The notes beneath the pieces are model-generated. The model was not told the DNA's origin and did no database searches. It saw nothing but the letters and a program-made list of their open reading frames with translations. Shown piece by piece: positions 17,111 through 33,648 of a DNA stretch of 64,000 nt; positions within the stretch are counted from its first letter, which is position 1, and each line of letters opens with the position of its first letter. This DNA comes from Planctomyces sp. SH-PL14 (lineage in GTDB: Bacteria; Planctomycetota; Planctomycetia; Planctomycetales; Planctomycetaceae). The DNA lies in assembly GCF_001610835.1 (NCBI RefSeq), contig NZ_CP011270.1, forward strand, positions 868,001-932,000, in the 5' to 3' direction. The translations under genes and the position numbers were made by a program.

Positions 17111-17120
17111 TCGGCCCAGA

Positions 17121-18806: not shown

Positions 18807-18824
18807 AATTGCCTCAAGGCAATT
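18807..18824. repeat. Palindrome AATTGCCTCAAGGCAATT
   Basis: A perfect 18-bp inverted repeat (7-bp stem, TCAA loop) followed by TTTT, 8 bp after the stop of the secreted-protein gene. It could act as a weak terminator or a protein-binding site. Same core at 20358 and 21813. Confidence 0.6.
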
Positions 18825-18843
18825 TTGGCCATTCGGCACCCCG

Positions 18844-18890
18844 GGCTTTGCGAGGAGTCGGAACGGAGAGCCCGGCCCGTTGAGGGGACA
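18844..18890 (+). repeat. Repeat R1, 3'-end fragment
   Basis: About 47 bp nearly identical to the last part of R1 (GCTTTGCGAGGAGTCGG through GTTGAGGGGAC). The upstream hairpins are absent, so this segment can exist on its own. Confidence 0.7.
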
Positions 18891-19018
18891 CCCTGAAGTC
18901 GCTGAGCAAAACGCTGGCGAACTACTGGCCGTTGGGAAATAATGCGGCAGAAATCTGGCCTGAAGCCGTGAGGGTCAGAAGAGTTCTCGGTGAATCACGA
19001 CAACTGAGCTTGTTTTCG

Positions 19019-19297
19019 ATGCCTGGCACCGCGGACAGCCACATTGAGATTGGATCGGAGGACTTTGCGTACCTCCGATCACTGGCCTACAGCATCTCGG
19101 GGAGCTCTGCGATCCTTCCCGATGCGGTTCCGTGCTCGCTTGAGCGGCTTTCGAGGCTGGAACTGGTCACGGTGATGGGCGGCAGGGTCTTCATCACGGG
19201 GCGGGGGATGTGTGCGGTCGAGTCCGGACCTGTCTCGACGAACGGAGACGTTCTCAGGTTCCGGACGGTAGATCTGAAGCGCGGCCGGGTGGACTAA
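19019..19297 (+). CDS. Array 1 small protein, family A (winged-helix-like)
   Basis: 92 aa from the ATG at 19019; the frame is open upstream to 18932. Residues about 14-72 align with the protein at 31046-31300: FAYLRSLAYSISGS against LSHLRRMAYSVSGS, and RVFITGRGMCAVE against RAFITGHGILAVE. The layout (helix E/D-x-x-x-L, variable middle, L-x-x-L-x-L, then F-I-T-x-x-G) is shared with other array proteins and suggests a small winged helix. Function unknown. It lies between the R1 fragment and R2 copy b. Confidence 0.6.
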   Translation: MPGTADSHIEIGSEDFAYLRSLAYSISGSSAILPDAVPCSLERLSRLELVTVMGGRVFITGRGMCAVESGPVSTNGDVLRFRTVDLKRGRVD

Positions 19298-19335
19298 GCG
19301 ACTCCCGCCCGTCCTGGTGAGAGTGACGTCCCGGA

Positions 19336-19510
19336 GTGACGCAGCTTGCAGCGGCTGGCGTGCGAAGAACTCCGGACCCTGCGTATCGGTAGCGAGCGAA
19401 CAAACTCAACGAGTGCACCGAATCGCAGCGGGGGCTCAAGGAGATTCCGGACCCTCGACCGGCCGGTCGCCGGAATCGGGCAAGGGCGGACCAAGCGTCA
19501 GCCCGGTTTC
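19336..19510 (+). repeat. Repeat R2, copy b
   Basis: A ~175-bp sequence similar to 17121-17296, starting with GACGCAGCTTGCAGCGGCTGG and ending with CAGCCCGGTTTC. It lies between family A and family B genes of array 1. Both copies keep the GCCGGAAT and GTCAGCCCGGTTTC blocks. Confidence 0.65.
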
Positions 19511-19692
19511 CGTCTCGAGGTTCTGCCCGTTTGGGCGCCTCCAGGCGACGGCAATGGCGGGGCAAAACAGATGGCGAATCTGTCAAAAAAAGGGCCTAGC
19601 CAGGAACCGAAGTGCGGCAAAAAATGGGCGGGGTTTCCGAGGCCTGCCGGGCTTCGCTCCTCTCAGCGCTGAGGGGGGCTTTGGGGTGGGGG

Positions 19693-19983
19693 ATGAAGGA
19701 TCTGGTGTTGTTGGGGGATGAAATTGCGATTCTCAAGCTCGCCGCAAAGCAGAGAGTGTCGCTGCGCGAAGGCCGGACGATTGCCCACGAGACCGCCTGT
19801 GAATTCCTTTGTGATGCGGGCTTGGCCCGTTGTCACGATGAGGAAATTGAGCTGACCGCCCTCGGGAAAGGGCTGGCGGCTTGGTTGGTGAAACAGGGCA
19901 TTTCCGGACCACGAGCGGTTTCTGGGGCCATCCTCGAAGGGCTTGTTGCATCGGATGAACGGCCCAAGGCGTCCGGCTCGTGA
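19693..19983 (+). CDS. Array 1 small protein, family B (winged-helix-like)
   Basis: 96 aa from the ATG at 19693. It is exactly as long as its paralogue at 31814-32104 and clearly related: MKDLVLLGDEIAILKLAAKQ against MKDLVLLPDEVALLKFAAKQ, then HETACEFLCDAGLA against HDIACDFFCETGLA, then IELTALGKGLA against IRLTQLGQRVA. The first 36 nucleotides of the two genes are almost identical, so the duplication is fairly recent or under constraint. The pattern of helix, GL(A/V) turn and I-x-L-T-x-x-G wing suggests a DNA- or protein-binding winged helix. Function unknown. Confidence 0.65.
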   Translation: MKDLVLLGDEIAILKLAAKQRVSLREGRTIAHETACEFLCDAGLARCHDEEIELTALGKGLAAWLVKQGISGPRAVSGAILEGLVASDERPKASGS

Positions 19984-20034
19984 GCCGGCCTTCAGCAAAC
20001 AATTGTTCTGCCACTCGGCAGCTTGGCGGTGATC

Positions 20035-20337
20035 ATGCGCGCGGAGACCAAAGTGAATCGGGACGGTGAGTCGACAATCGACCTAGGGAAGGGCAGCGTT
20101 TTGTCGTTAACGGCGGTGGAATACTGTTCGCTCTTGGCGGTCGTGGCGGGACGACTGTTTCGGGGCGAGGTCACGCCGACCGTCCTGAGTTCGCTGGAGC
20201 GGCTTGTGGAGCTGGGATTGGTGCGGGAGAGCCGCGAGATTTACGGCCCGACGGAGGTGGGGGCGCTAATTGCAGGGGCTCCGGCCGCCGAGCAAGCCGG
20301 AGTTGTGACAATCGACACCAGAGCGATCCGGCGGTAG
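20035..20337 (+). CDS. Array 1 small protein, family C (winged-helix-like)
   Basis: 100 aa from the ATG at 20035; a TTG at 20023 is also possible. The core VLSLTAVEYCSLLAVVAGRL, LSSLERLVELGLV and YGPTEVGALI follows the shared array pattern. The C-terminal strand VVTIDTRAIRR matches SIRIDMRALGW in the protein at 21467 and TVAFDYRHLGW in the protein at 31312, which defines family C. Function unknown. A TTGCCTTGAGGCAA palindrome follows 20 bp after the stop. Confidence 0.62.
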   Translation: MRAETKVNRDGESTIDLGKGSVLSLTAVEYCSLLAVVAGRLFRGEVTPTVLSSLERLVELGLVRESREIYGPTEVGALIAGAPAAEQAGVVTIDTRAIRR

Positions 20338-20357
20338 CCGAGCTCTCGCTCCGTTTC

Positions 20358-20371
20358 TTGCCTTGAGGCAA
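20358..20371. repeat. Palindrome TTGCCTTGAGGCAA
   Basis: A 14-bp perfect inverted repeat with the central TCAA reversed to TTGA relative to the 18809 and 21813 copies. It lies 20 bp downstream of a family C gene. Confidence 0.6.
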
Positions 20372-20566
20372 TCCCCGCAAGCGAGCCGCCGATGATGACG
20401 CTGGACTGTCCATGCCGTCTCCGTCAGTCGGGAAAAGATCAGAGCGGAATCCCTGATCCCGTGGAGTCGGGGCCGGCGACATCACCGGCAGTCAAAACAT
20501 TGATTGCGGTAACTCAGCAGGTAAAATTTGGGCACTGCCGACGGTATGTGAGTATGGAGGGCGGCC

Positions 20567-20911
20567 ATGTCGCTGGAGGGGCCACCGAGCGTCTTCATTC
20601 TGCGATCGGAATACGATTACTTGCTTCAGATCGTTCGAGCGCGGGGCACATTGATTCGAAATCCGCTCTCGGCAGATTTTGTGAGAGCGCGCTACCTGGA
20701 GCGGAAGGGACTGGTCGCACTCGATGGCGACTGGGTTTCTGCGACGGCCTTGGGTGTAGCTCTGTCGCAACTTCCCTTCCGGTCGGCGGCATTTGGGACG
20801 GCAGTGATGGTGGAGCTCGGACCAGACGGGGAATTGCCTGAGGTAGTGGGTCCCGCATGCTCACAATGGGATGCCGGTGGGCATCGCGACAGCAGTTTCC
20901 GGCGGCCGTAA
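20567..20911 (+). CDS. Array 1 small protein, unassigned winged-helix-like member
   Basis: 114 aa. ATG 20567 follows a GGAGGGCGG ribosome-binding site. The N-terminal FILRSEYDYLLQIVRARG matches the shared opening (strand, then E-x-x-x-L helix). RARYLERKGLVALDGDWVSA and TALGVALSQL follow the usual GL(V) turn and wing. The tail is extended and polar. No close pair in array 2, though the protein at 32258 is similar in outline. Function unknown. Confidence 0.55.
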   Translation: MSLEGPPSVFILRSEYDYLLQIVRARGTLIRNPLSADFVRARYLERKGLVALDGDWVSATALGVALSQLPFRSAAFGTAVMVELGPDGELPEVVGPACSQWDAGGHRDSSFRRP

Positions 20912-21081
20912 TCGTCGGACTCCGATCCAAGCTCGGGCGAATCGTCTGATCTGTCACAGTTCGGTCACATTCACAATCTGAGGTCCCAGGGCGACCAGCC
21001 TTTGCCACGATACAGATGACTCTTTGAACGCCTGACAATTCTGTGCAGGGCCATCGACGCTAGCCCCGAAAGGAGGCTCCG

Positions 21082-21309
21082 ATGTCTATGAGGATTGACG
21101 GGCTGAGCTTGTCGCCAAGAGCGGCATATCTGATGCGGCAGTACGCCGTGGCACGCAGTTGCCTGGAAGACGCCGCCGAGCGGGCGGAAGAAACGCGGGA
21201 GCGGCTTGAAATTCTGCGTGCCCGCATCGAGAGGCGCATCGCCTTGAACGACGCCTTTCTGGCCGCGCAGGACGTGAGACTCTGGGAGTCTAAGCAAAGT
21301 CACCGGTAG
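21082..21309 (+). CDS. Small coiled-coil protein
   Basis: 75 aa with a strong ribosome-binding site (AAGGAGG) 6 bp before the ATG. The sequence is almost entirely helical and charged (LEDAAERAEETRERLEILRA), a likely short coiled coil. It is unlike the winged-helix-like neighbours and may be a partner or adaptor. No family is recognised. Confidence 0.55.
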   Translation: MSMRIDGLSLSPRAAYLMRQYAVARSCLEDAAERAEETRERLEILRARIERRIALNDAFLAAQDVRLWESKQSHR

Positions 21310-21466
21310 GGCTGTGTCCTTGCCTGGTCTGCTCCCCGCTGTGCGGATGGATTACGCTTCGGAGTCGTTGGAGCCGCAGTTCATGTCCGGCAGTGCCGCT
21401 CGTGGCATTGGCGCATCGCAACTCGGCCGTGTGCCAAGGGGGGGACTGTGAGAGCCGGACGGCGTC

Positions 21467-21796
21467 ATGTCTGACAATCCAACAGAGCAGGGGGATGCGC
21501 TGTCCGACAGCGCGATCGTGCTGTCGCAAGGCATCCTGACGATGCCGATTCCGGTCTATGTCGCGCTTCATGCAACGAACGGGGCTCTGCGGTTGCACCC
21601 CGGGAATGTCACTCCCGCCAGGCGTGCGCACCTGGACGCATTGCTCGAAGTGGGCCTGGTCATGCGCCGCGAGATCTACTTCTCGCCGACAGAGGCTGGA
21701 GTGCAGGTCATGAAAGCGGCCATCCGCACGGAACGTGATCGCTCGCAGGACACGAGCGGCAGTATCCGGATCGACATGAGAGCGCTGGGCTGGTGA
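21467..21796 (+). CDS. Array 1 small protein, family C
   Basis: 109 aa from the ATG at 21467. The helix IPVYVALHATNGALRLHP, then AHLDALLEVGLVMRREIYFS and PTEAGVQVM, and the terminal SIRIDMRALGW align with the proteins at 20035 and 31312. Y(F/G)(S/P)PTE is shared with 20035 (YGPTEVG against FSPTEAG). Function unknown. A TTGCCTCAAGGCAA palindrome follows 17 bp after the stop. Confidence 0.62.
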   Translation: MSDNPTEQGDALSDSAIVLSQGILTMPIPVYVALHATNGALRLHPGNVTPARRAHLDALLEVGLVMRREIYFSPTEAGVQVMKAAIRTERDRSQDTSGSIRIDMRALGW

Positions 21797-21812
21797 CAGG
21801 GGGCGGGCGTTC

Positions 21813-21826
21813 TTGCCTCAAGGCAA
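21813..21826. repeat. Palindrome TTGCCTCAAGGCAA
   Basis: Same 14-bp core and following TTTTGGCC as the copy at 18809, again just downstream of a gene in array 1. Confidence 0.6.
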
Positions 21827-21929
21827 TTTTGGCCCCCGGGGGATTCCTCAGTATCACCCCCCCATCTACTCCTCAGGAATGGGCCGGATCGCAAGGGTTC
21901 CCTTCCGGCCGGCCCGATCTCGCATCCCC

Positions 21930-22124
21930 TCAATCTCCGTCTCCGGGTCCCCGGCGGATGTCCTCGATCTGTTCTCTCAGCGCCTGATTCTCGGCGTCCT
22001 GTTCGTGCGAGGCGGAGCGCTGGGCCAGGATAAGGGTCGCGAAGCCGCAACCCAGGCAAGCCGCAAAGAGGAGTAAGCGGGCGAGCCGGGACGGCCGTTC
22101 CTCTGACGCACGGGGATCGTTCAT
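21930..22124 (-). CDS. Small membrane protein (64 aa)
   Basis: ATG at 22124 with GGAGAGCC upstream. A membrane helix (ARLLLFAACLGCGFATLILA) is followed by a helical acidic tail (HEQDAENQALREQIEDIRRG). The layout recalls the 50-aa membrane protein at 16250. It runs opposite to array 1 and closes it. Function unknown. Confidence 0.5.
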   Translation of the reverse strand: MNDPRASEERPSRLARLLLFAACLGCGFATLILAQRSASHEQDAENQALREQIEDIRRGPGDGD

Positions 22125-22379
22125 TCGGCTCTCCAAAGGGAAGGAGCCAGTCTGGGCGGCTGACGGGCACTACTCAACAGCCTGGCCGCCGGAATCGCCC
22201 TCGAATGATGGGATCCGTCCAGATCCGGGCGCGGCCGGTCGGCCCGACAGCATTGCGCGCACGGTGTCCGTATCGAGGGTCTTTTCGGGATTGATTGAGC
22301 GTATTTCTGTGCGTGTCCGCTGCGCAACAGAAGTCGCGAGGTCGTCTCCGGGATCGGGGCCGTTCAACTCTTCTCGGAC

Positions 22380-23234
22380 GGACTGTGAATCATCTCGAAT
22401 ACCGTGGAGGTCCTCGACTGGTTCGCCGCGATCATTGACCAGTTTGAAGCGGCCGCATCTGTCACCTGGTACGTGCAACTCCACATCCTCCGGTGTCCGA
22501 ACAGGACAGCCGGAATCTCGGTCTGGACATCGCGCCAGTTGTCGACCTGGCGACCCTCGGAGCTGCTTCGCACGCGGAGACCTAGCGGAGACCCTGAAAG
22601 GGCTGCTCGACGTCGCGAATGAGAAGTCCCGGACGATGATCGTCGCGGAACCGCTCATGCTCACCGTGGACGGGGACACCGGCACCTGGCAGCGATCGCG
22701 ACAAGTCCCAATCGAGAGCTCTGTGATTGACCCGCGCACCGGGGCCATCTCCAGGAGTTACGATTACCGATCTGCCGGGCTCAACGTCACGGTCGACCTG
22801 CGGGAGTCGTCCTGGAGATCAGCGCGCGTCAACTTCAACATCCAGCTTGGGGACGTCATCTCCGGCGGCGATGGGTCCGGACCGCCGGTGATCGCCGATC
22901 GTGGCTCAAGGCCTCGGCCGATGTCTACACCGGCGGTGTCTATCTGGTCGGCGCTCTCCGGGAGGGGACCGGGAACAAAGGGGCTGCGGGCGCTCTCACG
23001 TTCGGAGATCGCCAATCGTCGGATTCCACGGAGGTTGTGTTGTTCGCCCGTGTCGCTCGGATCGGACGTTCCCTGATTTCCGATCCGGGGACGGAAGGGC
23101 CGGAGCAGGACAGTGGGAGCGCGGTTGAGATACCGAGGGACACTCCCCCGATACCTCATCCGCTACTTCCGGCTCCAGCGGGGCCCGAGCTTCTTCCCTT
23201 GGAGCGGACCTCTAGATCGTTGAGGGAAAAGTGA
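22380..23234 (+). pseudogene. Secretin-like (type II/III secretion) protein remnant
   Basis: A coherent protein can be read only by changing frame several times: VEVLDWFAAIIDQFEAAASV, then SRNLGLDIAPVVDLATLGAA, then AETLKGLLDVANEKSRTMI with AEPLMLTVDG and VIDPRTGAISRSYDYRSAGL, then (after about 22905) YTGGVYLVGALREG and TEVVLFARVARIGRSL. The order resembles the C-terminal secretin domain of GspD/PilQ-like outer-membrane channels. At least three frameshifts mean it is not functional as read. Confidence 0.5.
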
Positions 23235-23249
23235 GACCTATAATGTGTC

Positions 23250-23747
23250 TCACTCTTCCGGCTCGTCAGCCTCCGCGTTGATGGTCCGCGCCAAGGCTGT
23301 CAACGCCTCGTCGGTTGCTTCCTCCTCAGCAATATTCGCCTTGAGAAGCTTCAAGGCTTGGGAATAGCCGAGGATTTCGGCCCACGTGCACAGCGTACCG
23401 TACGTCGCGATTTCATAGTGTTCGACCTTTTGGGCGCACGCGATGAGCAGGGCATCCATGACTTCGGGAGAGGCATCCTCCTCCATCATGCTGGACGCTT
23501 CCGTGATGAGTCCCTCCATCGCCTCGCACTTCTTCGCCTTCGCGGCCTTGCCTGTGTCGCCGAACGCCTTCTCCACCCGCTCCACTTGAGCCTTGGTCTC
23601 TTTGAGGTGTTTCTCGAAGGCGCGAATGAGCTGCGGAGCCGTAGCGGCCTTCGACATCTTCGGCAGGGCCTTTAACAGCTGTTTTTCTGCACTGAGGACA
23701 TCGCGGAGCTCGTCATGAAAGGCATCGGCCAGAGATTTCAGGGCCAT
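23250..23747 (-). CDS. DUF892 (YciE/YciF-type) ferritin-like stress protein
   Basis: 165 aa from the ATG at 23747, where the family normally begins ([20 protein letters not shown]). The four-helix ferritin-like fold has metal-ligand candidates in [20 protein letters not shown] and [15 protein letters not shown]. Members are induced by osmotic and other stresses; the activity is poorly defined. It is divergent from the general-stress-17M gene, sharing a ~150-bp promoter region. Confidence 0.88.
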
Positions 23748-23898
23748 TCCAAACCTCGTAGGGAGAAGTGATGAAATCGTTACCGAGCACCTGCCGCAAC
23801 TGACATGCCGCCTCAGATTGCAGAAGAGGTCATGGGCGCACGACTTGCGTAAGCCGGCTGTGTCTCGCGTCCCACATGTCCATGAAAGGCTCGCATTC

Positions 23899-24393
23899 AT
23901 GACCACGTCCACCACTACTCTCGGTACCGTTGTTGGCTCTTTCGAGAGCGAGGCCCAAGCTCAGCGTGCGGTCAATGCGCTGCGAGGCGAGGGTTTTACT
24001 GAGGACGAAATCGGAATTGTCGCTCCGAACTCGACTACTGGGGTGTCGGGTACGGCCACGGCCACGAAAGCCGAGGAAGGGGCCGTCGCTGGGCTCGCCA
24101 CAGGTGCCGCGCTCGGTGCTGTCTGGGGAATGGGAATACTTGCCGGCATGATTCCAGGGATCGGGCCAGCGATCGCTGGCGGCACCTTGGCGGCGTTGCT
24201 CTCAAGCGCAGGCGCTGGAGCGGCGGCGGCCGGCGTTGCGGGTGCTCTCATCGGAATGGGAATCCCTGAGAAAGACGCAACGTACTACGACGCGGAGTAC
24301 GGTCGGGGACGTTCGATCGTGACCGTACGGGGAGGTCGCACCAGCGAAGCGCGGGCAATTCTTGACGCGAACGGTGCGCTTCGGCGTGTTTGA
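23899..24393 (+). CDS. General stress protein 17M-like membrane-associated protein
   Basis: 164 aa from the ATG at 23899. The N-terminal ferredoxin-like half ([31 protein letters not shown]) is the YflT/GSP17M pattern. A long Gly/Ala-rich hydrophobic stretch follows (about 60-115: [20 protein letters not shown]), then [18 protein letters not shown]. The protein probably inserts in or binds the membrane. It is divergent from the DUF892 gene, forming a small stress locus. Confidence 0.85.
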
Positions 24394-25035
24394 GGGATCA
24401 CCGCGGCTCGGCAGCAGTCGAACGCGGACTGACCGTTTGCCTTGCTGCTGCCGAGCCATTACTTAGCTTGCAAACCCGTGCTACGAGATTCCGAAGTGAG
24501 TCACGAGAGCGCCCGATGGCACGTTGGCCACCACCCGTGTTCCCGATTTTCGCTGCTCGGGACTGACTTCTCTTGGTCACTGCGGCGAACTAAATGCAAC
24601 CTGCCTGAATGGAAGGTCGACTGGCTGACCGCCCCGCTCTTGTCGGAGGGGCCGGAGCTGAGCGGGGGACCCGGCGCAGGCCCCGGAGATAGGGAAGGCC
24701 GTTCGCATCTACTGGACAGTATGCCGCTCGGCCTCAACAGCCCGCGTTACAGGTCGAATCTTCAGAACTCGATGGATGCAATCGCTGCCGGACGCTTGAG
24801 CGCGGGACGAACCTCTCCGCGTTCGCGTCGCGCTGCGTTTTGCGGACTTCGTGGTCCTTCCGGTCAGCGAATCTGCGACGGCGTTTCAGTTGAACCGGCT
24901 TGGCTGTTCTTCAAGAAACTCCCGCGGCATTCTCGCCAATACCTCTGACCGCCCGGGGACGGTCGAGCCGGTAGGTGCCGTGCTGGCCCGCCTCACTCCC
25001 GCTCCTGTCCTCGGACATTCCACCAGCAATTGGCG
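24394..25035. other. 640-bp gap
   Basis: No convincing gene, repeat or RNA was found. A 168-codon frame crosses the region but has no recognisable content. The RsbR-like gene ends at its right side. Confidence 0.35.
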
Positions 25036-25893
25036 TCAGCTCCTTTTCGTAACGACGAGCTGGAGACGCTTCATTGCCAGTTCCAGCGCGTCTGCGAGAG
25101 TCGCTTTCGTGATGACCCCCCCGAGATCGATGCCGAGATGGACTATCGTCTGAGCAATTTGCGGCCGTACGCCGGAGATGATGCATTCCGCGCCCATCAA
25201 TTGAAGGGCAGTCACGGTCTTCAGGAGATGTTGGGCCACTAGGGTGTCAACGGTTGGAACTCCCGTGATGTCGAGGATCGCGATCTCTGATCCGGTCTCG
25301 ACCACTCGTTGGAGTAGGGACTCCATAACGATCTGTGTCCGCTCGCTATCCAGGGTGCCGATCATCGGAAGGGCCAGAATTCCATCCCACAACTTCACCA
25401 CTGGCGTTGAGAGTTCCAGCAGGTCTTGCTGTTGTCGGCGGATCACATCCTCTCTGGTCTTCTGGAAGGCTCGAACAGTGAGCAATCCCATCTTGTCGAG
25501 CAGCTCTGTCGCCACCCAAGTTTCCTCAGTGAAAGCCTCGGCGTCTTTGGCCAGATCCGTTTTCAGACGAGCGAAGAGAGGCTGTTTGAACGAAAAGACA
25601 AAACGAGCCGTTTCGTCTACGGTGAAGCCCTGCAGGACCCGGGTGCGCGACACCTCGGCGAGAAACCCTTCGATTTCTTTCCACTCGGGCCGGGTCGTAT
25701 CCGTGATGTCGCCGCTCTGTGTAGCCTTCTGAAGCAACGAGACGAATTCACCGGCCTGGGTCTTCAGGTCACTCTCATTGATGCGGTTGTCTCGCCCTGA
25801 ACCGCCTTCTCGCAGTAGCCGCATCCAATCGGAAATCAGCGAGTCTTCGTGCTTCTTGATCGTATCGGCGATTCGACCGACGGCTTTCGCCAT
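25036..25893 (-). CDS. RsbR-type STAS regulator (stressosome co-antagonist family)
   Basis: 285 aa from the ATG at 25893. An N-terminal globin-like RsbR_N region (about 1-150: IKKHEDSLISDWMRLLREGG) precedes a linker helix (REDVIRRQQQDLLELSTPVV) and a C-terminal STAS domain with IAILDITGVPTVDTLVAQHL, in which the Thr residues are the usual phospho-acceptors. Such proteins form stressosome-like complexes and control a sigma cascade. No RsbS/RsbT partner is nearby. A same-length paralogue with two stop codons is at 34001. Confidence 0.88.
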   Translation of the reverse strand: MAKAVGRIADTIKKHEDSLISDWMRLLREGGSGRDNRINESDLKTQAGEFVSLLQKATQSGDITDTTRPEWKEIEGFLAEVSRTRVLQGFTVDETARFVFSFKQPLFARLKTDLAKDAEAFTEETWVATELLDKMGLLTVRAFQKTREDVIRRQQQDLLELSTPVVKLWDGILALPMIGTLDSERTQIVMESLLQRVVETGSEIAILDITGVPTVDTLVAQHLLKTVTALQLMGAECIISGVRPQIAQTIVHLGIDLGGVITKATLADALELAMKRLQLVVTKRS

Positions 25894-26149
25894 TGAGGTG
25901 CTTCGGTGTTTCGAGGGCAGGGGAGAAGCCAGTACGCGTGATGATCGTAAGCCACCGTGTGGTGAAGGGACATGAGGTCGGGCGGAACATTTGGCAAAAA
26001 TGTCGCCACGGGTGTCCTTCGCCCCGTGTCTGTCCCGGCAAGCGCACCGCCAGTGATCGCCCCGAGTGGACGGGAATGCCGGCTGACGGCACTCCCGTTT
26101 TCCTGAGAGTACCGTCACGGCTCGATGCCACTGCAACTCTCGCTGTTTG

Positions 26150-26470
26150 AGAAGACCAGGGAGGCCCTGGGGCCGCAGGCCGGGCCGGTAACGGCCGCGA
26201 ATCTTGCGGAGGTTCTCCGTCAGGAGGTAGGGGCACCGGACGAGCTCGTCGATGTACGTCTCCCGGTCCCATTCGGTCGTGAAGTCGATTCACCGTGTCG
26301 CCGCGACTTGGGCTGCTCTGTGAGTGTTCCAAGGCTCCGCCGAGCGCAGGAACTCGATCAGCCAGGCCGCCATCGTCGCCTCGTTCGCTCGGCTCTCGTG
26401 CTGCGTATTTTTCAGCACCTTCGAGAAGGTGGCTTCCTCGCGGCGAGGTTACGGCCCCGATCCATCCCAG
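26150..26470 (-). pseudogene. C-terminal fragment of a ParB-like paralogue
   Basis: The minus strand reads EATFSKVLKNTQHESRANEA, WLIEFLRSAEPWN, an in-frame TGA, then FTTEWDRETYIDELVRC and TENLRKIRGR. It matches the tail of the broken ParB-like gene at 28724-29765 (EPIFSKVLEQTQHKSRANEA, WLIEFLRSAELWN, EDLRKIRGR). Only about 100 codons remain. Confidence 0.65.
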
Positions 26471-26869
26471 GTTTTTTTCCGGTGTCGACGCGCGTCGATT
26501 TTGCCCGGCCGCTCCAAGTCCGACCTGGTCAACGTCGACGTCGTGGGAAGCTGAGTCCTGCTGGGCCTTCCATCCCGAACGATCGAAGGTGTTGAGGATT
26601 GCCGATCAACGGGTCTTGTGCTGCTGGCCGACGAAGTGTCCCTCTTCAGGCTCGGGGCAGGGGAGAGGGGAGAGGAGAGAGGAGAATTCCTCGAAGTGGC
26701 AGGACATGCGTCCACAAGACTGAGTTGGACCAGGGGCGCTCCGGGGCGCCATCAGACGACACGTCACGAAAAGTACCCGAATTTTGAAATACTGACCGGC
26801 CGCCAAGCGACATAACTTCGGCGAGCATACGCCACCGGCATTCCGAGTGACGATTTCACGGGAGGTTTG
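26471..26869. other. 400-bp spacer with a palindrome
   Basis: TCGACGCGCGTCGA at 26485-26498 is a perfect 14-bp palindrome that recurs at 29975 and 31679. A purine-rich GGGGAGAGGGGAGAGGAG run lies near 26660. No gene is convincing. A GGGAGG ribosome-binding site at the right end belongs to the ECF gene. Confidence 0.4.
26485..26498. repeat. Palindrome TCGACGCGCGTCGA
   Basis: First of three exact copies. The flank following each copy is TT(T/C), so the repeated unit is slightly longer than the palindrome. Variants lie at 32597 and 39344. Confidence 0.5.
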
Positions 26870-27391
26870 ATGGATTGGAAGTCTGTATTGGAACGGGATG
26901 GTCCCACCGCTTGGCGGGCGGCCTACCGCCTCCTTGGAAACTCCGCAGATGCCGACGACTGCCTGCAGGAGGCTGCAATCGATGCCGTAAAGGTGGCCCG
27001 TCGCGAACCCATCGCCAACTGGAGGGCACTCCTGACCCGGCTGGCCTCGGTCCGAGCGATGGATCTTCTGCGGAAGCGGTACCGCAGCCAGAGCAATCAC
27101 GGGCTTGATCGCGAGTCCCCAGTCATGGCGGATCGGCTCGATCCTGGCGAAAACGCTCAGCTGCAGGAGCTGCGACACCAATTAAGGGTCGCGCTCAGTC
27201 AATTGTCACAGGAACAGGCCGCAGCGTTCTGCCTCTGCGTGCTGGAAGGCTGGACCTATGCCGAGGCAGCCGAACATCTGAGGGCGCCAGCCAGCACGGT
27301 CGGCGTCCTAGTACACCGGGCACGACAACATCTGCGCGAACTGCTGAAAGATGTCGTCCCTGAATCCCTATCGACAAGGAGTTCTCCATGA
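26870..27391 (+). CDS. ECF-family RNA polymerase sigma factor
   Basis: 173 aa from the ATG at 26870, seven bases after GGGAGG. Region 2 shows AWRAAYRLLGNSADADDCLQ and NWRALLTRLASVRAMDLLRK. Region 4 shows LSQEQAAAFCLCVLEGWTYA and HLRAPASTVGVLVHRARQHL. The stop overlaps the start of the next gene by ATGA, a tight translational link typical of a sigma factor and its membrane regulator. Confidence 0.88.
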   Translation: MDWKSVLERDGPTAWRAAYRLLGNSADADDCLQEAAIDAVKVARREPIANWRALLTRLASVRAMDLLRKRYRSQSNHGLDRESPVMADRLDPGENAQLQELRHQLRVALSQLSQEQAAAFCLCVLEGWTYAEAAEHLRAPASTVGVLVHRARQHLRELLKDVVPESLSTRSSP

Positions 27392-28593
27392 ACGCGAACC
27401 ATGCTCCAAATGATTCTCTCGATGCCGCGGAAGCTTCCCTGCGGGAGCTCCCGGCGCACATCGTCCCGTTGACTGCGACATTGGATCGCATCGCCGCCCA
27501 TGTCGGCGAACTGGACACCCCTTTGATGCCCCGCCATATCAAGACGGTTTGGTCCTCCCGAGGGCGACGATTCGCGGCGATGTTGCTGACCTCCGCGGCG
27601 CTCGTCGCGGTGGTGTTCGGCCTGATGCACTCGCCGCAGGAAGCCTTTGCGTTGGAGGATATCGCCGCTGCCGTGCGGGAGGTGAGCACCCTCACTTACA
27701 CGACGGTCCTCACTCCCAAGAATGGAAGTGCTTCGCAACTCAAGAACTATCACAAGGGGAAGCTGGCGCGTACGGAGAGTATCGACGGCAGTTACCGCGT
27801 GACGGACAGTGCTGAGCGGAGAATGTTGTCAGTTCGTCCAGGCGTGAAGGCGGCTACGCTGACGAAGCTGGGGAGCGGTCCTCAAGACGTGCCGACGATG
27901 TCGGATTCGATCATTGCTTGGCTGAAGACTGCCGAAACGACCGGTGAACCGGCCGGAGACAAGACTATCAACGGCGTTCGGACTCAAGGATTCAAGGCCA
28001 CGTTTGGCGCCACAACGATGACGTTGTGGGGGGATCCAAAGACGAAGTTGCCGGTGCTGATCGAAGCGACGATCGGATCTTTGGCGGATCCGATCCACAT
28101 GGTGATGCAGGATTTCGTCTTCAATCAGCCCTTGCCTGATGCGATGTTCTCCTTCGAGATCCCGACTGGATTCAAGACTGAAGAGATAACCTTCCCGAGC
28201 GTCGACTTCACTGCGTTAGGCAAGGTACCGCCCGAAGATCACGTTGTCAGAGTCTTGCGATTCTACGCCAAACTGAACGACGGAGCCTTCCCCGAGCGAA
28301 TCGACGGTCCGGAACTCGTCGCGAAGATCACGAAGGCCGCGGGGGCGGATCGTGTGAACAATCCGGAGTTCATGAAGGAGTTCATGGAATTGACGGGCAG
28401 CATGGGAGCGGCTTGGACGTTCCGCCAATCGCTCGACAAGTTTGGCTACGACGGGACGGCACGCTTGGATGATGCCGACCGGATCGTCTTCTGGTATCTC
28501 CCTAAGGGGGCCGAGAAATACCGCGTCGTCTTCGCGGACTTGACTATTGGTGATGCACCGGAAGCAAAGCTTCCCAAAGCGCCGAAGAAGTGA
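27388..28593 (+). CDS. Membrane protein, probable anti-sigma factor with LolA-like outer domain
   Basis: 401 aa, overlapping the ECF gene by 4 bp. A ~55-residue cytoplasmic part precedes one membrane helix (FAAMLLTSAALVAVVFGLMH, about 62-82). The outer region (about 90-270) resembles LolA/LppX-like beta-sandwich domains common in planctomycete regulators (SQLKNYHKGKLARTESIDGS, MTLWGDPKTKLPVLIEA, DFVFNQPLPDAMFSFEIPTG). The last ~110 residues are helical with no clear family. No HCxxC zinc anti-sigma motif is visible, so the sigma-inhibiting role is inferred from the overlap and topology. Confidence 0.7.
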   Translation: MNANHAPNDSLDAAEASLRELPAHIVPLTATLDRIAAHVGELDTPLMPRHIKTVWSSRGRRFAAMLLTSAALVAVVFGLMHSPQEAFALEDIAAAVREVSTLTYTTVLTPKNGSASQLKNYHKGKLARTESIDGSYRVTDSAERRMLSVRPGVKAATLTKLGSGPQDVPTMSDSIIAWLKTAETTGEPAGDKTINGVRTQGFKATFGATTMTLWGDPKTKLPVLIEATIGSLADPIHMVMQDFVFNQPLPDAMFSFEIPTGFKTEEITFPSVDFTALGKVPPEDHVVRVLRFYAKLNDGAFPERIDGPELVAKITKAAGADRVNNPEFMKEFMELTGSMGAAWTFRQSLDKFGYDGTARLDDADRIVFWYLPKGAEKYRVVFADLTIGDAPEAKLPKAPKK

Positions 28594-28664
28594 GCGTCGG
28601 GATTCGTTGCGACACTTGTTCGATCAAAGCCGGCCCGCTTCAGGTCTCCCGTCGATTGAGAAGA

Positions 28665-28694
28665 AAGCGCCCCTGCATGCGGGGGCGCTTTCCT
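28665..28694 (+). terminator. Rho-independent terminator of the ECF/anti-sigma operon
   Basis: An AAAGCGCCCC / GGGGGCGCTTT stem around a TGCATG loop, followed by T-rich TTTCCTTT, about 75 bp after the stop. Confidence 0.8.
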
Positions 28695-28723
28695 TTATTG
28701 AGTCAGAGAATTCGTTGATCATT

Positions 28724-29765
28724 TCAGCAGAGCAGGGAGGTCCTTCGGCCCAGACTAGGCAGGTCTCGGCCGCGAATCTTGCGGAGGTCCTCCGGCAGGA
28801 GGTCGTAGCAGCGGGTCAGGTCGTCGATGCACGTCTCCTGGTCCCACTCGGTGGCGAAGTCGATTCCAGGGTCGCCGCGACGCGCGCCGCCTCGTGAGCG
28901 TTCCAGAGCTCCGCCGATCGCAGGAACTCGATCAGCCAGATCGCCAGCGCCGCCTCGTTCGCTCGGCTCTTGTGCTGGGTTTGTTCCAGGACCTTCGAGA
29001 AGATAGGTTCTTCGCGGAGGTCCTGATCCTGGTAGTACCGGAACAGCGCGAAGGAAAGTCCTCCGAGGGCACCGACTCCGGATCCCGCCATCATCGCCGG
29101 GACCAGAGCGAGCAGTTTCGGCCGCGATCGGGCGTTGTCGAGCTTCTTGATGATGGCTCGGGTGAACCAAGTGGCGAGAAAGGAAAGACGCTTCCATTCG
29201 TCCGGGATCTGCTCGGCCTTCGCCGGCGTCGGCTCCGGTTCCTCGTTCTCCTTCGACGCCGCCAGGTCGGCCGCCCGGTGGTCCTTGGCGAGCTGGTCCC
29301 ATAGCTCGATGTTGAAACACCGCTCGTTCTCTTCGAAGCGGTGGACGTCCGGGGCCTTCTTGTTGTTCGCCTGCCATTTGCAGTTCGGGTCGAAGTCCCG
29401 CGAGAGCTTGTAAACGGTGTTGTTGACGAGGGTCTGCCACCAGCTCGTGGTGACCTCGGCATTGTTCCCGCGCCATTTGTCCCACTCCTGGCGGAAGGCG
29501 GTCGCGATCGCCGGGTGCTTCAGCCACTTCGTCACCGCCCCGGCGTGGGTGGGTGTGAACGATCCGTCGCGGATCTCCTTCTCCCACTGCGGGGACTGTC
29601 CTGCAGGACCCCGAACGATTTGACGGAGGCTATGGTCTCCTTAAGGCCGGCGGCGGTGCCGGCTTCGAGGGCTTGCCGGGTCCGGCGGTTCAGCGGGCTG
29701 GGGTCGATCAGGGAGAGGTCGACATCCTGCGATTCAACGTTCTTTGACTTGGTGACTATGAGAGC
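28724..29765 (-). pseudogene. ParB-like gene with internal deletion and frameshift
   Basis: The N-terminus (DLSLIDPSPLNRR, AAGLKETIASVKSFGVLQ) is ParB-like, but the frame breaks near 29600 and jumps to QWEKEIRDGSFTPTHAGAVT, so most of the ParB nuclease domain and helix-turn-helix is gone. The C-terminal part (29535 down to about 28870: HPAIATAFRQEWDKWRGNNA, WFTRAIIKKLDN, WLIEFLRSAELWN) is open. A last frameshift near 28850 is followed by DLLPEDLRKIRGRDL. It occupies the same position relative to repeat R1 as the intact ParB-like gene at 14836. Confidence 0.7.
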
Positions 29766-29772
29766 GGGTTCC

Positions 29773-30000
29773 TTAGAACGGAGGGTCTACGGGTGGTTGC
29801 CGGAGCCACTCGGCGGCGTCGGCGACGAAAGCGGACAACTTGCGGAGCGTGATCTCGGCGAAAGCGGCCGTAGCCAGGACTCGCCGGCGTCGTTCGATGG
29901 ATGTGTTCTCATCCATCCAGTGGATTTCCTCGCGCAGCCGGCGGAGCTGGTCCTCCAGATCCTTGAGCTGCAAATCGACGCGCGTCGATTCCGGTTTCAC
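29773..30000 (-). CDS. Small coiled-coil protein of module 2
   Basis: 75 aa from a GTG at 30000 whose bases overlap the stop of the upstream 37-aa gene. A heptad-like stretch LKDLEDQLRRLREEIHWMDE precedes a helical C-terminus (AFAEITLRKLSAFVADAAEW). A TCGACGCGCGTCGA palindrome lies inside its codons 4-8, so either the palindrome tolerates coding use or the true start is further in. No family is recognised. Confidence 0.5.
   Translation of the reverse strand: MKPESTRVDLQLKDLEDQLRRLREEIHWMDENTSIERRRRVLATAAFAEITLRKLSAFVADAAEWLRQPPVDPPF
29975..29988. repeat. Palindrome TCGACGCGCGTCGA (second copy)
   Basis: Exact copy inside the 5' end of the coiled-coil gene. Confidence 0.5.
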
Positions 30001-30110
30001 TTGCGGCTCTCGTCGCGAAGGGAGCGCGTCATCCGCGCGACCAGGAGGTAGGCGGCGTAGCAACACAGTAGCGCCATGCAGACGACGTAGATCGTTTCGA
30101 AGGTGGTCAT
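29997..30110 (-). CDS. Small single-pass membrane protein (37 aa)
   Basis: From the ATG at 30110: a membrane helix (IYVVCMALLCCYAAYLLVA) and a short basic tail (RMTRSLRDESRK). The stop overlaps the GTG of the next gene. It holds the place of the 50-aa membrane protein in module 1: first leftward gene beside R1, upstream of a ParB-like gene. Confidence 0.6.
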   Translation of the reverse strand: MTTFETIYVVCMALLCCYAAYLLVARMTRSLRDESRK

Positions 30111-30166
30111 GGGTTGTGGTCCTTGTGTCCCGCCAACGGGCGGGCAGGGGGGAAGGGCGGTCGAGT

Positions 30167-30496
30167 GTTCCCGGCCATCGAGCCGGCCCGCCGCCGTAGT
30201 GGTCCTTTGGTTGAGCAGCTCCGGTCGGCTGTTGGGTGAAGGGGTCTCGCCCCTTCTCCGCCGGAAGGCCCAGCGGAGCGACCCCGCATTCAAAAACCCC
30301 GTCCGTTCGGAAGGGCTGCGGCTGCGTCGTCGTAGGGCTCGCAAGGGGGTTCCCTGCGACGACGCAGCCGCTGACCCTTCCGGACACAAAAGAGCCGGCT
30401 GCCTAGCCGTCCCTGGAGCGTCAGGGATCGGAGAGGAGACCCCGCAGGCTTTGCGAGGAGTCGGAGCGGAGAGCCCGGCCCGTTGAGGGGACGCCA
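30167..30496 (+). repeat. Repeat R1, copy b: multi-hairpin element, candidate structured RNA
   Basis: Homologous to 16779-17110 over its full length. The central stem (30305-30385) keeps pairing despite changed bases: block CTGCG with CGCAG here replaces TGGAT with ATTCA in copy a, and GGAAGGG with CCCTTCC replaces GAGGGG with CCCCTC. The 3' half from ACAAAAGAGCCGGCTGC on is nearly identical. It lies between the leftward module-2 operon and the rightward array 2, as copy a does in module 1. Confidence 0.7.
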
Positions 30497-30624
30497 GGCC
30501 GCACTTGCCTTAGCCACCCAAGGAAATCTCTCGGGACTGAGCCAGGAATCGCCCGTTGTGACGGAGACAACTTCTGTGTGAACTTCAGCCTGCTAGTAGG
30601 CGGTGAGGTCTGGAGTGTCGGACG

Positions 30625-30927
30625 ATGTTTCGAGTTGTCGCGAATGCGGCTGAGTGGGGCTGGCTCCTGCATCTGCTTGATGTTCCAGTGAGGGTCTCTG
30701 AGCTCTCCGAGTCAGAAGCGGAGCTGGTGCTCGGCCTGCAAGATCGCTTCCTCGTGGCAACGTTGAACGGTGTCTCGACCTTGACCGCCTTAGGCAGGGG
30801 CTTCGTCGTCTCCGCTCCGGCCGTCGGGTCCGCCGGGCTCCGCGTCTGGGCAGAAGACAGGGAACCGTTTGACGCAGAGACGACTTCGATTGGTCGCGAT
30901 CGCGGCTCGTTGCCAGAGTCCTGTTGA
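30625..30927 (+). CDS. Array 2 small protein, unassigned winged-helix-like member
   Basis: 100 aa from the ATG at 30625, first gene of array 2, about 130 bp after R1 copy b. VANAAEWGWLLHLLDVPVRV, a central helix and STLTALGRGFVVSAPAVGS give the array outline (aromatic/acidic start helix, T-x-L-G-R-G wing). The tail is acidic. No close pair. Function unknown. Confidence 0.5.
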   Translation: MFRVVANAAEWGWLLHLLDVPVRVSELSESEAELVLGLQDRFLVATLNGVSTLTALGRGFVVSAPAVGSAGLRVWAEDREPFDAETTSIGRDRGSLPESC

Positions 30928-31045
30928 GTCGACTGCCGAATGGAGCGTCCGAGTTGTCGAGGGCGCACCGGAATCGTGTTTGGTTCGTGCGGTTGATAAG
31001 GTGCGTGCCGTCAGGCCTTGGCTGGGCTGACGGTGGAGGTGCTGA

Positions 31046-31300
31046 ATGTCGAATCCCCCTGGGGGCGAGGTTCGGGTGACCGAATCGGATCTCAGTCACT
31101 TGAGGAGGATGGCATACAGCGTTTCGGGGAGCTGCGATGTCGGTGTCGACCTGCCGGCGGCACAGGCGCAGGCTCTTGCAAGTCGTGGCCTTGTCTTGAT
31201 TGCGGAGCAGAGAGCGTTCATCACGGGGCATGGAATCCTCGCGGTCGAAAAGGCGATGGACGGTGCACCGAGCGTTCGGGCGATCGGTAAAGGCAACTAA
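31046..31300 (+). CDS. Array 2 small protein, family A
   Basis: 84 aa. It pairs with the array-1 protein at 19019: shared SLAYSISGS / RMAYSVSGS and FITG(R/H)G blocks at equal spacing. Family A proteins keep a LR-x-hAYS(I/V)SGS stretch not seen in the other families. Its stop is 11 bp before the next gene, suggesting one transcript. Function unknown. Confidence 0.6.
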   Translation: MSNPPGGEVRVTESDLSHLRRMAYSVSGSCDVGVDLPAAQAQALASRGLVLIAEQRAFITGHGILAVEKAMDGAPSVRAIGKGN

Positions 31301-31311
31301 CGGCGGCAGAT

Positions 31312-31644
31312 GTGGACCAAAAAACGGGATCCGGTGGATCGGAAGCAGAGTTCGGCGATGACGGCGTCAGCGGCCATCCGCCGCACGTTTTCCGGCTGAT
31401 GCTCATCGAGTACGAAGTGCTGGCAGAGCTGGGCATCGAACCCATGCGCGCCGAGCTGGTCCCCGCTGCGATCGCGGACGCGATCGGCCATCTGGTGCTC
31501 AAGGGATTGGCCACCAACGAGCAGCGGACGGTGACGATCACCGACCGCGGTCGGCAGCTCTTGGAAGTCGGACCGGTGAGCCAGACGCCATACACCGTCG
31601 CCTTCGACTACCGCCATTTGGGTTGGAATGACGGAACGCCGTAG
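31312..31644 (+). CDS. Array 2 small protein, family C
   Basis: 110 aa. After a polar N-terminus, VFRLMLIEYEVLAELGIEPM, GHLVLKGLATNEQRTVTITD and RGRQLL give the winged-helix-like core. The end TVAFDYRHLGW matches the C-terminal strand of the proteins at 20035 and 21467. This is the clearest wing (VTITDRGRQLLE) of the set and resembles small PadR/MarR-like domains. Function unknown. Confidence 0.62.
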   Translation: MDQKTGSGGSEAEFGDDGVSGHPPHVFRLMLIEYEVLAELGIEPMRAELVPAAIADAIGHLVLKGLATNEQRTVTITDRGRQLLEVGPVSQTPYTVAFDYRHLGWNDGTP

Positions 31645-31678
31645 ACGGGCGGTGTCGGGCAGCTGTCTTCGGCCGCAG

Positions 31679-31692
31679 TCGACGCGCGTCGA
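31679..31692. repeat. Palindrome TCGACGCGCGTCGA (third copy)
   Basis: Exact copy, about 35 bp downstream of the family C gene of array 2. Confidence 0.5.
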
Positions 31693-31813
31693 TTTCCGCT
31701 GCGGCCAGAAAAATGGGACTGGCCACGAGTCGACCCATTGCGAAAATGTGCCGTGGAATCGGGTTCGCTCCGGTCTTCCGTTCCCGGTCTCGCTCGGTCC
31801 CGTGGAGTGGTGG

Positions 31814-32104
31814 ATGAAGGATCTGGTGTTGTTGCCGGATGAAGTTGCGCTCTTGAAGTTCGCTGCAAAGCAGGGAGCCCTAAATCGGTCCGGTCCGACT
31901 CTCAGCCACGACATCGCCTGTGACTTCTTCTGCGAGACGGGCTTGGCGGAGTCCGACGGCGACCACATTCGTCTGACCCAACTTGGCCAACGGGTCGCGA
32001 ACGCTTTCCTTTGCGCGGGTGTATTAGGTACCGCCTCGATCTCTCGGTGTGTCCTAAATGCTCTGGGACCGCAAGTTGCATTCACCGACGGGGCGTACCG
32101 GTAA
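31814..32104 (+). CDS. Array 2 small protein, family B
   Basis: 96 aa, the same length as its partner at 19693, with closely matching protein and an almost identical first 36 bp. Core: DEVALLKFAAKQGALNRSGP, CDFFCETGLAESDGDHIRLT, QLGQRVANAFLC. Changes between the copies are conservative, which suggests the protein has been kept under selection after duplication. Function unknown. Confidence 0.65.
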   Translation: MKDLVLLPDEVALLKFAAKQGALNRSGPTLSHDIACDFFCETGLAESDGDHIRLTQLGQRVANAFLCAGVLGTASISRCVLNALGPQVAFTDGAYR

Positions 32105-32257
32105 CGGTCACGTCTGGGGGCACTCCTGTGCCACCTGCCGGCATGCGTCCTCACTTGGCGGCAGAATGGCTTGTCCCCGGCGTGACCGTCCTCCGCTCGG
32201 AGCAGGGGAGTCTCGTCATTGATGGATGGGTGTTGTTGAAAATGGGATTGCGGCGGA

Positions 32258-32518
32258 ATGGCCATTCAACGGATCACGATCTTGGAAGAAGAGTGGCGAC
32301 TGCTGGTCGACCTCATCGCCGGGTTCAACCTGGCTCACTACCACCCGGTGAAGTTCGACCTCGCACTTGCCGGCTTGCTTCGAAGCGGCCTGGTCGAGGA
32401 GGTTCCGCAGGGGACCCGCGTCAGTCGCCTGGGGTATCAGGTGAGGAAAGCGGCTCCGCTCTACGCTCTCGGAGAACCTCGTATCTGGTACGGGGTGGAG
32501 GAGCCCGATGTGCCCTGA
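32258..32518 (+). CDS. Array 2 small protein, unassigned winged-helix-like member
   Basis: 86 aa from the ATG at 32258. ITILEEEWRLLVDLIAGFNL, LAGLLRSGLVEEVPQGTRVS and LGYQVRKAAPLY reproduce the strand-E-x-x-x-L helix, the GLV turn and the wing. It resembles the protein at 20567 in outline. Function unknown. Confidence 0.55.
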   Translation: MAIQRITILEEEWRLLVDLIAGFNLAHYHPVKFDLALAGLLRSGLVEEVPQGTRVSRLGYQVRKAAPLYALGEPRIWYGVEEPDVP

Positions 32519-32893
32519 AGCCGACCTACCGCAATCCAGTTGGGCTCGTGGTCATGTGGCCTTCGGAACTGCTTGGCCAGCCTCGTGGGCAGGAAATCGC
32601 CGCGCGTCGATTCAGTGTTCGACGACCTTCTTGGCCAGGCCCGAGGTGAGCGACCGGCGTTGACTCCACTAGGGGCTGATCTCACTGCCACCAAGTCGAG
32701 TAATCGCCCCGCTTGATTTCGGGGGCGTCCTACCTGGCCTTTTTGGGTGGGCTGTCGTCGTGGACAATCCCTGCCAAATTCAGCAACTCATCCGAATGTC
32801 GTCCGAACACGGGCACCGGTGAGATACAATCGACCCAACACGCTGGCCAACTTCGACCACCGTAATTCGCTTTCGGTGACCACGAGGTTCCGC
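32519..32893. other. 375-bp intergenic stretch in array 2
   Basis: No gene is convincing. A variant palindrome TCGCCGCGCGTCGA lies at 32597-32610. A GC hairpin-like CCCCGCTTGATTTCGGGGGCG lies near 32707. The region probably holds the promoter of the next gene. Confidence 0.35.
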
Positions 32894-33139
32894 ATGGATG
32901 GGATTGTGCTTTGGAATGATGAGTCCGCTTTCTTGAGGCGGTTGAGCAAAGGCTGGGGTATCCTCTCGCTGTCAGGCTGCCCGGATGAGCAGGCGGTCGC
33001 CGATTACGTGTGTGCCCGGGGGTTCGCGACGCAAACAGGAAATGCGATCCGGCTTTCCAGCGTCGGGAAGCGTCTATCACGCTTTGTTCAGGAGCACTCG
33101 GTGCCCATGCTGCAGGTGCCGGCCGTCGAATTGGCGTAG
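32894..33139 (+). CDS. Array 2 small protein, family B (divergent, short)
   Basis: 81 aa from the ATG at 32894. MDGIVLWNDESAFLRRLSKG, VADYVCARGFATQTGNAIRL and SSVGKRLSRFV align with MKDLVLLGDEIAILKLAAKQ and the rest of family B at the same spacing, so it is a diverged third member. Function unknown. Confidence 0.58.
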   Translation: MDGIVLWNDESAFLRRLSKGWGILSLSGCPDEQAVADYVCARGFATQTGNAIRLSSVGKRLSRFVQEHSVPMLQVPAVELA

Positions 33140-33330
33140 CGGCTGGTTGAACGCGTTTGGACTCCGAAACCGTTCCCAATGTTCCGGGTGTGCCGTTTGC
33201 CTTTAACCCGCCGTTGCAGCAGCGGCCCGGTCGGGAAAACGATGAGTCTCGGCTGCCGCCAGGCTTCATGAGCTGCGGTCGGTCGAGGTTCTCCAACACC
33301 GCGTGTCGGTATGGTCAAGTAGGGGACAAT

Positions 33331-33648
33331 GTGCTTGCCGAAGATCTGATCTTCTCAGACATGAGTTACGAGCTCCTTCAGGCTTGTGCGATCGGGGAAG
33401 GTGTCCCGATGGACGAGCTGTCCGTGTCCGCGGCGTCGTCCGCGCTGGCGCTGGGATTGCTGGGCTTGGTGGTTCAAGAGAGGGGGCGGCTGATGACGAC
33501 CGCCCGCGGCAGTGTCGTGTGCCGCGCCGAGACAGAGGCGGTGAACGGCGTGGATGTCCGTGTCAGGGCGGGGTCCCTATGGGTGTCGGAGTTGTCGGAG
33601 CAGTGGGCCGCGCTCGACGTTTCCCGGCAGAGGTCGTGGGGCGAGTAA
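33331..33648 (+). CDS. Array 2 small protein, unassigned winged-helix-like member
   Basis: 105 aa from a GTG at 33331, chosen because the array proteins start with a short strand before the E-x-x-x-L helix; ATG 33361 is possible. LIFSDMSYELLQACAIGEGV, SSALALGLLGLVVQERGRLM and TTARGSVVC follow the array outline. A longer C-terminal tail ends in Trp-rich SLWVSELSEQWAALD. Function unknown. Confidence 0.5.
   Translation: MLAEDLIFSDMSYELLQACAIGEGVPMDELSVSAASSALALGLLGLVVQERGRLMTTARGSVVCRAETEAVNGVDVRVRAGSLWVSELSEQWAALDVSRQRSWGE

Follow-up and report, generated by a model that had tools for sequence, protein, structure and literature searches.

Introduction

Described proteins close in outline to those studied here include small stand-alone winged helices such as Sso10a, AspA of pNOB8 and TubR, which occur in few copies per genome and make basic contacts to DNA, and the MarR-family regulators, whose chains mostly have 130–150 amino acids. 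In this study, we analysed a 64,000-nucleotide stretch of the chromosome of Planctomyces sp. SH-PL14 (contig NZ_CP011270.1, positions 868,001 to 932,000; hereafter the window), which carries two arrays of small genes. Our analyses revealed that 12 of the array proteins, of 81–114 amino acids, and their chromosome-wide paralogues are a single superfamily of small, single-domain, predicted winged-helix proteins with ~100 copies, whose members have about 80–115 amino acids.

The original prediction for this DNA had described three rapidly diverging paralogous families shared between the two arrays, and had suggested a role in defence or addiction. Our results lead us to a tentative reading, to which we give a probability of roughly 45%: that the members of this orphan family serve stress or signalling pathways as small regulators or adaptors that bind a partner, more likely protein than DNA.

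Size and unity of the superfamily

The first profile searches comprised four iterated rounds against 6,239 open reading frames (ORFs) of the first 464 kb, with each window family as a separate seed (genes are named as in Table 1). The sets reached from seeds B (65 ORFs), C (73), D1 (61), D2 (54) and E1 (69) were largely overlapping, seed A reached 23 ORFs in a set that was still growing at round four, and seed F1 reached 13. When 684 kb had been examined, the ORFs that matched at least one profile at an expectation value (E) < 1e-3 numbered 105, including a few fragments; they are grouped in 26 clusters, and 12 of them lie in the window. A profile of 50 rows run against the 8.44 Mb chromosome yielded at least 98 matches, part of them partial, with 135 of 383 candidates scored, and a search of the genome with B2 alone gave 27 matches at E ≤ 1, B2 itself counted.

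Removal of the three ORFs longer than 230 amino acids left a set of 102 members. Pairwise phmmer comparison (database of 102) joined all of these in a single component at E < 1e-3, which still held 100 members at 1e-5. The largest component in three random sets of 102 ORFs had two members. None of 9,010 reversed ORFs matched any of the eight profiles at E < 1e-3, and 12 random ORF seeds gathered at most five members each without reaching a member of the family. Three unrelated families are therefore ruled out by the overlap of the seeds, the single phmmer component and the clean controls, which also bear out the predicted paralogy across the arrays.

Graph clustering divided the 102 members into seven subfamilies (a to g) of 6 to 26 members each. 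Two of the three families predicted from the window, A and B, hold in this clustering; the third, C, splits between subfamilies b and c, and all 12 proteins belong to the one superfamily. The details on which those families were founded were recovered, and every ORF that had been named is present at the start given for it. A1 and A2 share AYSISGS/AYSVSGS and FITG at an identity of 31–33%. The family B motif reads LVLLGDEIAILK in B1 and LVLLPDEVALLK in B2, with a looser fit in B3 (IVLWNDESAFLR), and B1 and B2 are both 96 amino acids long, with 3 mismatches in the first 36 bases. The C-termini of C1, C2 and C3 are IDTRAIR, IDMRALG and FDYRHLG, respectively, and the further proteins of the same outline are those that start at 20567, 30625, 32258 and 33331/33361.

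Selection on the copies

The ratio of nonsynonymous to synonymous substitution rates (dN/dS) was calculated for 281 pairs of at least 40% identity, of which 214 were informative (dS 0.05–3), eight had dS < 0.05, three had dS > 3 and 56 were saturated. All 214 informative pairs had ratios of 0.09–0.58 (median 0.27), with B1 and B2 at 0.49. Among the eight pairs with dS < 0.05, two (dS 0.013) had ratios of 1.5–1.9 and one had a dS of 0 and a dN of 0.005; in these three the values stem from a handful of changes. A simple codon-usage calling recovered 59 of the 74 members in a set from which five fragment ORFs had been removed beforehand. The members are real genes kept by purifying selection, and the possibility of spurious ORFs is ruled out by dN/dS, codon usage, and the decoy and random controls.

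With 307 pairs pooled, no structural region had a dN/dS above 1. The highest value, 0.86, was that of the loop at 21–29 between helices 1 and 2, which is also the least certain part of the alignment, and helix 2 had a ratio of 0.49; these values average over sites, and positive selection at a few positions is possible. Positive selection as a general explanation was rejected, as no informative pair exceeded 0.58 and no region exceeded 1. The rapid divergence that had been predicted thus exists in sequence distance and not as positive selection, with ratios well below the values near 1 that had been named as evidence against the prediction.

Predicted fold and comparison with known winged helices

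An AlphaFold2 model of B2, built from an alignment of the 12 window paralogues, has a winged helix at a predicted local distance difference test (pLDDT) score of 86. Its elements are a strand (4–6), two helices (8–20 and 30–41), the two strands of the wing (45–48 and 51–54), a helix (56–68), a strand (74–76) and a last helix (78–84). The A1 model, built from five A and C proteins and no B protein, has the same order of elements at a pLDDT of 78 (the best of five models, 57–78); its alignment is a subset of that of B2, and the two models are not fully independent. The predicted fold is a reduced winged helix, consisting of a strand, helix 1, a loop, helix 2, the wing hairpin, helix 3 and a C-terminal strand. 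DSSP assigned one helix, not two, between helix 1 and the wing in both models, and the gap of 9 (B2) or 14 (A1) residues between helices 1 and 2 holds no helix, so that the would-be first helix of a complete helix-turn-helix (HTH) is absent in the models. The winged helix of the original prediction is supported, as a prediction, by both models and by the fold comparisons; unrelated predicted structures had been named as the result that would speak against it, and the two models agree.

The best VIA matches were MarR-type winged helices over ~70 residues, with Z scores of 9.0 for B2 and 8.4 for A1, whereas Foldseek had no match in the PDB at E ≤ 0.001. MarR (3vb2) aligned with the B2 model over 69 residues at a root-mean-square deviation of 2.5 (Z 9.0). 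The MarR-family regulators 3vb2 and QsrR (4hqm) share with the models the succession of elements from helix 1 through the recognition-helix position and the wing hairpin to the helix that follows. They differ in having the first HTH helix, which the modelled members appear to lack (the 69 aligned residues extend across 83 of MarR), and a basic recognition helix, as the corresponding position in the members is not basic. Only one of 50 members matched MarR_2, at an E of 0.022 and below the curated cut-off.

RPA3401 (2jtv), a compact winged helix that we take to be DUF3253, matched the B2 model with 59 of its 65 residues (Z 8.0) and the A1 model with 60 (Z 7.6), but is absent from the PDB sequence matches at E ≤ 1. 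Among the small stand-alone winged helices that organise DNA (Sso10a, AspA of pNOB8 and TubR), 5k5q and 4rs8 reached Z scores of 8.1–8.3 with the B2 model, and TubR (4asn) a Z of 7.0 with the A1 model; the NCBIfam Sso10a profile matched one of 50 members (E 0.014). The wing motif is also like those of Pfam families HVO_A0261_N, with weak matches in 8 of 50 members (best E 2.2e-4), and HemN_C, with weak matches in 6 of 50 (best E 0.014), the latter being part of a larger protein. Since a Z near 8 may reflect a common arrangement, the fold claim rests on the Z scores no more than on the GL-LTxxG wing motif and on the fact that the two models agree.

The best conserved positions of the superfamily are L14, L44 and G58. 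An acidic residue at 10 (E or D) is conserved in every subfamily except c, and a basic one at 15 in subfamilies a, b, e and g. In subfamily a, the acidic residues at 33, 37 and 41 of helix 2 are conserved, and the helix also carries two cysteines spaced by four residues, at 36 (12 of 21 members) and 40 (18 of 21). Subfamilies b to g have no conserved basic face on helix 2; in this region, subfamily e has one conserved arginine (38), f has two that are partly conserved (31 and 41), g has one immediately after the helix (43), and the consensus of d includes an arginine below the threshold used. Each copy would most likely dock a different partner, because the conserved residues look like those that maintain a fold, there is no evident catalytic set, and the other positions vary between copies.

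A fold of this kind could also belong to DNA-binding transcription regulators, that is, to small dimeric half-MarR proteins that each control their own array or nearby stress genes. We consider this alternative possible but doubtful. The best PDB matches include MarR, QsrR, AF1382 and AspA, helix 3 and the wing carry basic residues in subfamily a, and the arrays are embedded among regulators and stress genes, all of which would suit it as the winged helix itself does; however, the first HTH helix is in neither model and helix 2 lacks a conserved basic face. In addition, none of the 12 window members reached a Pfam cut-off, the best Pfam match among 50 members was to a CARF-associated HTH (5e-5, one member), and the upstream regions of the family genes do not have a motif common to most of them.

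Relatives in other genomes

The superfamily is an orphan family, with no full-length relative in any other genome searched. A subfamily profile had no match at 1e-4 in 391 other genomes of the phylum. The superfamily profile matched short wing segments, at 1e-3 in 7 of 39 relatives and in 14 of 149 same-family genomes, and at 1e-5 in 3 of 396 same-class genomes; these samples overlap. The partial matches covered at most 52 of the 86 profile positions and nearly all were in frames of 232–962 amino acids, with a single one in a short frame (99 amino acids; G105:C51, same-family genomes). Those read at 15 loci are wing segments, some of which sit in proteins that, judged by sequence, are presumably HemN-like. 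As the number of candidates scored per genome was at most 36 for the 149 same-family genomes and at most 13 for each of the 391 phylum and 396 same-class genomes, a weak true relative may escape these searches.

Peptide-pattern scans, which detect close relatives only, found no relative in two runs over 84,980 species, each represented by a single genome, or in one run over viral contigs. Nor was there one in a tblastn search of B2 against plasmids and phages at E ≤ 0.01, or a match among viral structures at E ≤ 0.001. Searches of Pfam, NCBIfam, PHROGs and PADLOC with 50 members returned scattered weak matches, and the most populated of the Pfam ones are winged helices. A literature search, conducted mainly at the level of abstracts, turned up nothing describing such a family. 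To our knowledge, it is extreme for a bacterial chromosome to hold ~100 copies of a protein family that has not been seen elsewhere.

A further alternative is that the members are orphan immunity or antitoxin proteins forming a defence or addiction repertoire, as originally suggested. In its favour, they are small, clustered and without relatives elsewhere. Immunity proteins are often acidic (isoelectric point below 7), and the calculated isoelectric point is below 7 in 47 of 61 non-redundant members. Against such a role, eight PADLOC models weakly matched one or two of 50 members each (best E 4.4e-4, LmuC, one member), none of 10 window neighbours matched PADLOC at 0.01 in a search that was not exhaustive for partner toxins, and no structural region evolves at a dN/dS above 1. 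A defence or addiction function is thus unsupported, and we regard it as quite improbable.

Duplicated blocks and array architecture

The genome regions that carry the family are rich in kilobase duplicated blocks, with 673 pairs identified at E ≤ 1e-10 in the 684 kb examined, the 90 longest of which have 64–100% identity. Blocks of up to 6.6 kb link the islands, and family copies lie inside them. This abundance, together with the existence of truncated family copies (e.g., 280628 and 5125113), could mean that the copy number simply follows from the tendency of this genome to duplicate, and that most copies have no particular role and are carried along by their neighbours. That explanation is rather improbable, given purifying selection in all 214 informative pairs and a family of ~100 copies versus three for DUF892 and nine for Hsp20. 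Within the window, the segmental duplications at 14867–17297, 34014–38419 and 8320–9373 have counterparts, 94–99% identical, at 7.15, 4.36 and 4.39 Mb.

Integron-like cassette shuffling was rejected, as block ends were not in excess at gene starts, were weakly so at stops, and mostly lay elsewhere. For 200 block ends near family genes, those within 30 bp numbered 6 at starts (expected 6.0) and 10 at stops (expected 5.9, p 0.06), and those within 10 bp numbered 4 and 5, respectively (expected 2.0 each; p 0.15 and 0.05). Array order was tested on 19 strings, with single-gene clusters, g strings and two near-identical copies left out and partial copies kept. Subfamilies are not mixed evenly within arrays more than in shuffled arrays (p 0.51); their order is somewhat conserved (p 0.009), with d or e first (p 0.03).

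The window genes are listed in Table 1. The GTG at 33331 was preferred to the ATG at 33361 as the start of F1 because the residues 5' of the ATG are conserved, by eye, in paralogues. X1 has one paralogue in the 464 kb searched, in an array at 3.86 Mb, where it is also directly 5' of a subfamily c gene.

Table 1. Array genes and box copies in the window.
Feature	Positions	Strand	Length (amino acids)	Subfamily	Remarks
Box copy	17046..17110	+			Within a longer repeat 5' of array 1
Box copy	18838..18892	+			5' of array 1
A1	19019..19297	+	92	e	Superfamily; modelled
B1	19693..19983	+	96	a	Superfamily
C1	20035..20337	+	100	b	Superfamily
D1	20567..20911	+	114	c	Superfamily
X1	21082..21309	+	75		Outside superfamily
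C2	21467..21796	+	109	c	Superfamily; family C of the original prediction
Box	30430..30500	+			Non-coding repeat 5' of array 2
D2	30625..30927	+	100	d	Superfamily
A2	31046..31300	+	84	e	Superfamily
C3	31312..31644	+	110	b	Superfamily; length from GTG
B2	31814..32104	+	96	a	Superfamily; modelled first
E1	32258..32518	+	86	f	Superfamily
B3	32894..33139	+	81	a	Superfamily
F1	33331..33648	+		c	Superfamily; GTG start

Upstream regions and non-coding repeats

A non-coding repeat, the box, precedes both window arrays. With 40 of 47 candidates scored, it had at least 16 matches genome-wide (E ≤ 0.01), all 16 within 25 kb of superfamily genes and 15 within 5 kb. Nine copies are 5' of the first gene of a cluster and two of an internal gene, at distances of 75–276 bp. 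The box ends in GGGGACGCC, directly after which unrelated sequence starts in several arrays. The box belongs to a mosaic repeat that also takes in 17111–17296 and 19327–19510, and the 3' half of the box occurs in eight copies, all near array genes. A structured leader RNA was rejected on a fold z of 0.08 (30381–30510), and Rfam yielded no family (one match at E 0.56).

The words enriched in upstream regions were those of the box, present at some arrays, and CCTGCCGG. The latter lies outside the box; in non-redundant upstream regions of 200 bp, it was found in 12 of 90 for family genes versus 3 of 573 for other genes. A consensus scan listed one sigma-70 promoter and 11 terminators, no more than in shuffled sequences. 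The near-perfect palindrome ATTGCCTCAAGGCAAT occurs in the window shortly 3' of stop codons, at 18808–18823, about 20357–20372 and 21812–21827, and at 12 sites with at most two mismatches in the 684 kb examined; it is terminator-like by eye and was not listed by the consensus terminator scan.

Neighbouring genes

The islands also carry other genes, including some for stress and signalling proteins. Pfam identified DUF892, YflT, Hsp20, DUF1003, DUF1275 and RsbRD/STAS, together with a ParB-like protein and a sigma-70-family factor; there are also response-regulator-like proteins identified by eye and CsrA-like proteins below the Pfam cut-off. The 25 kb surroundings of family genes, which make up 10% of the genome, hold all three DUF892 genes, three of five RsbRD_N and three of nine Hsp20.

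Several neighbours in the window are themselves duplicated. The ParB-like gene (14836–16200, minus strand) recurs at 7.148 Mb with 97% identity, and distant copies flank the arrays at 7.170 Mb and at 7.195 Mb; the match of a further copy, at 3.229 Mb, is about equal to those in relatives. A CsrA-like protein with a C-terminal extension (17465–17830; Pfam E 3.6e-5, below cut-off) has two further copies among the genes called in the DNA examined. The adjacent 17851–18798 encodes a protein of ~300 amino acids with a start that by eye resembles a signal peptide; five of its six genome matches are within 25 kb of array genes and it has none in the 39 relatives, and it is another private family of these islands. 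An RsbRD/STAS paralogue at 34001–34834 looks broken, with two in-frame TAG codons in its RsbRD_N part and an open STAS part. A pair of small proteins, receiver-like by eye (36060–36494 and 36544–36927), is copied as a pair at 4.366 Mb; Pfam gave nothing at 0.01 for the first of the two.

Discussion

Our preferred reading is that of small binding regulators or adaptors. The computations show that copies multiplied by duplication of kilobase blocks in islands that also carry stress and signalling genes, and that they are retained by purifying selection. The members may then act as small binding regulators or adaptors, with each copy docking its own partner, more probably a protein than DNA. Target diversity, as proposed in the original prediction, is possible via diverged surfaces.

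Several observations weigh against this reading. The best structural matches are mostly DNA-binding proteins, and subfamily a has a partly conserved basic patch (R53, R60 and R63/K64) that could contact nucleic acid. The first HTH helix is missing from predicted models, which would be no proof of its loss. In the association with stress genes, Hsp20 alone has p 0.054 at 25 kb and DUF892 has p 0.11 at 5 kb, and the associations are not independent because blocks were duplicated together.

A bolder extension of the preferred reading, which at present seems unlikely to us, is that a stripped-down winged helix that is no longer a DNA reader has been turned into a set of a hundred binding modules that is renewed as islands with repeats exchange duplicates; one fold would then be the private scaffold for many specificities in a stress and signalling network. 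The selection data suggest that the copies are functional, and if so, they would represent a natural experiment in building a private regulatory or binding repertoire. As they form about seven subfamilies and range through every degree of divergence, they could allow direct mapping of partner specificity.

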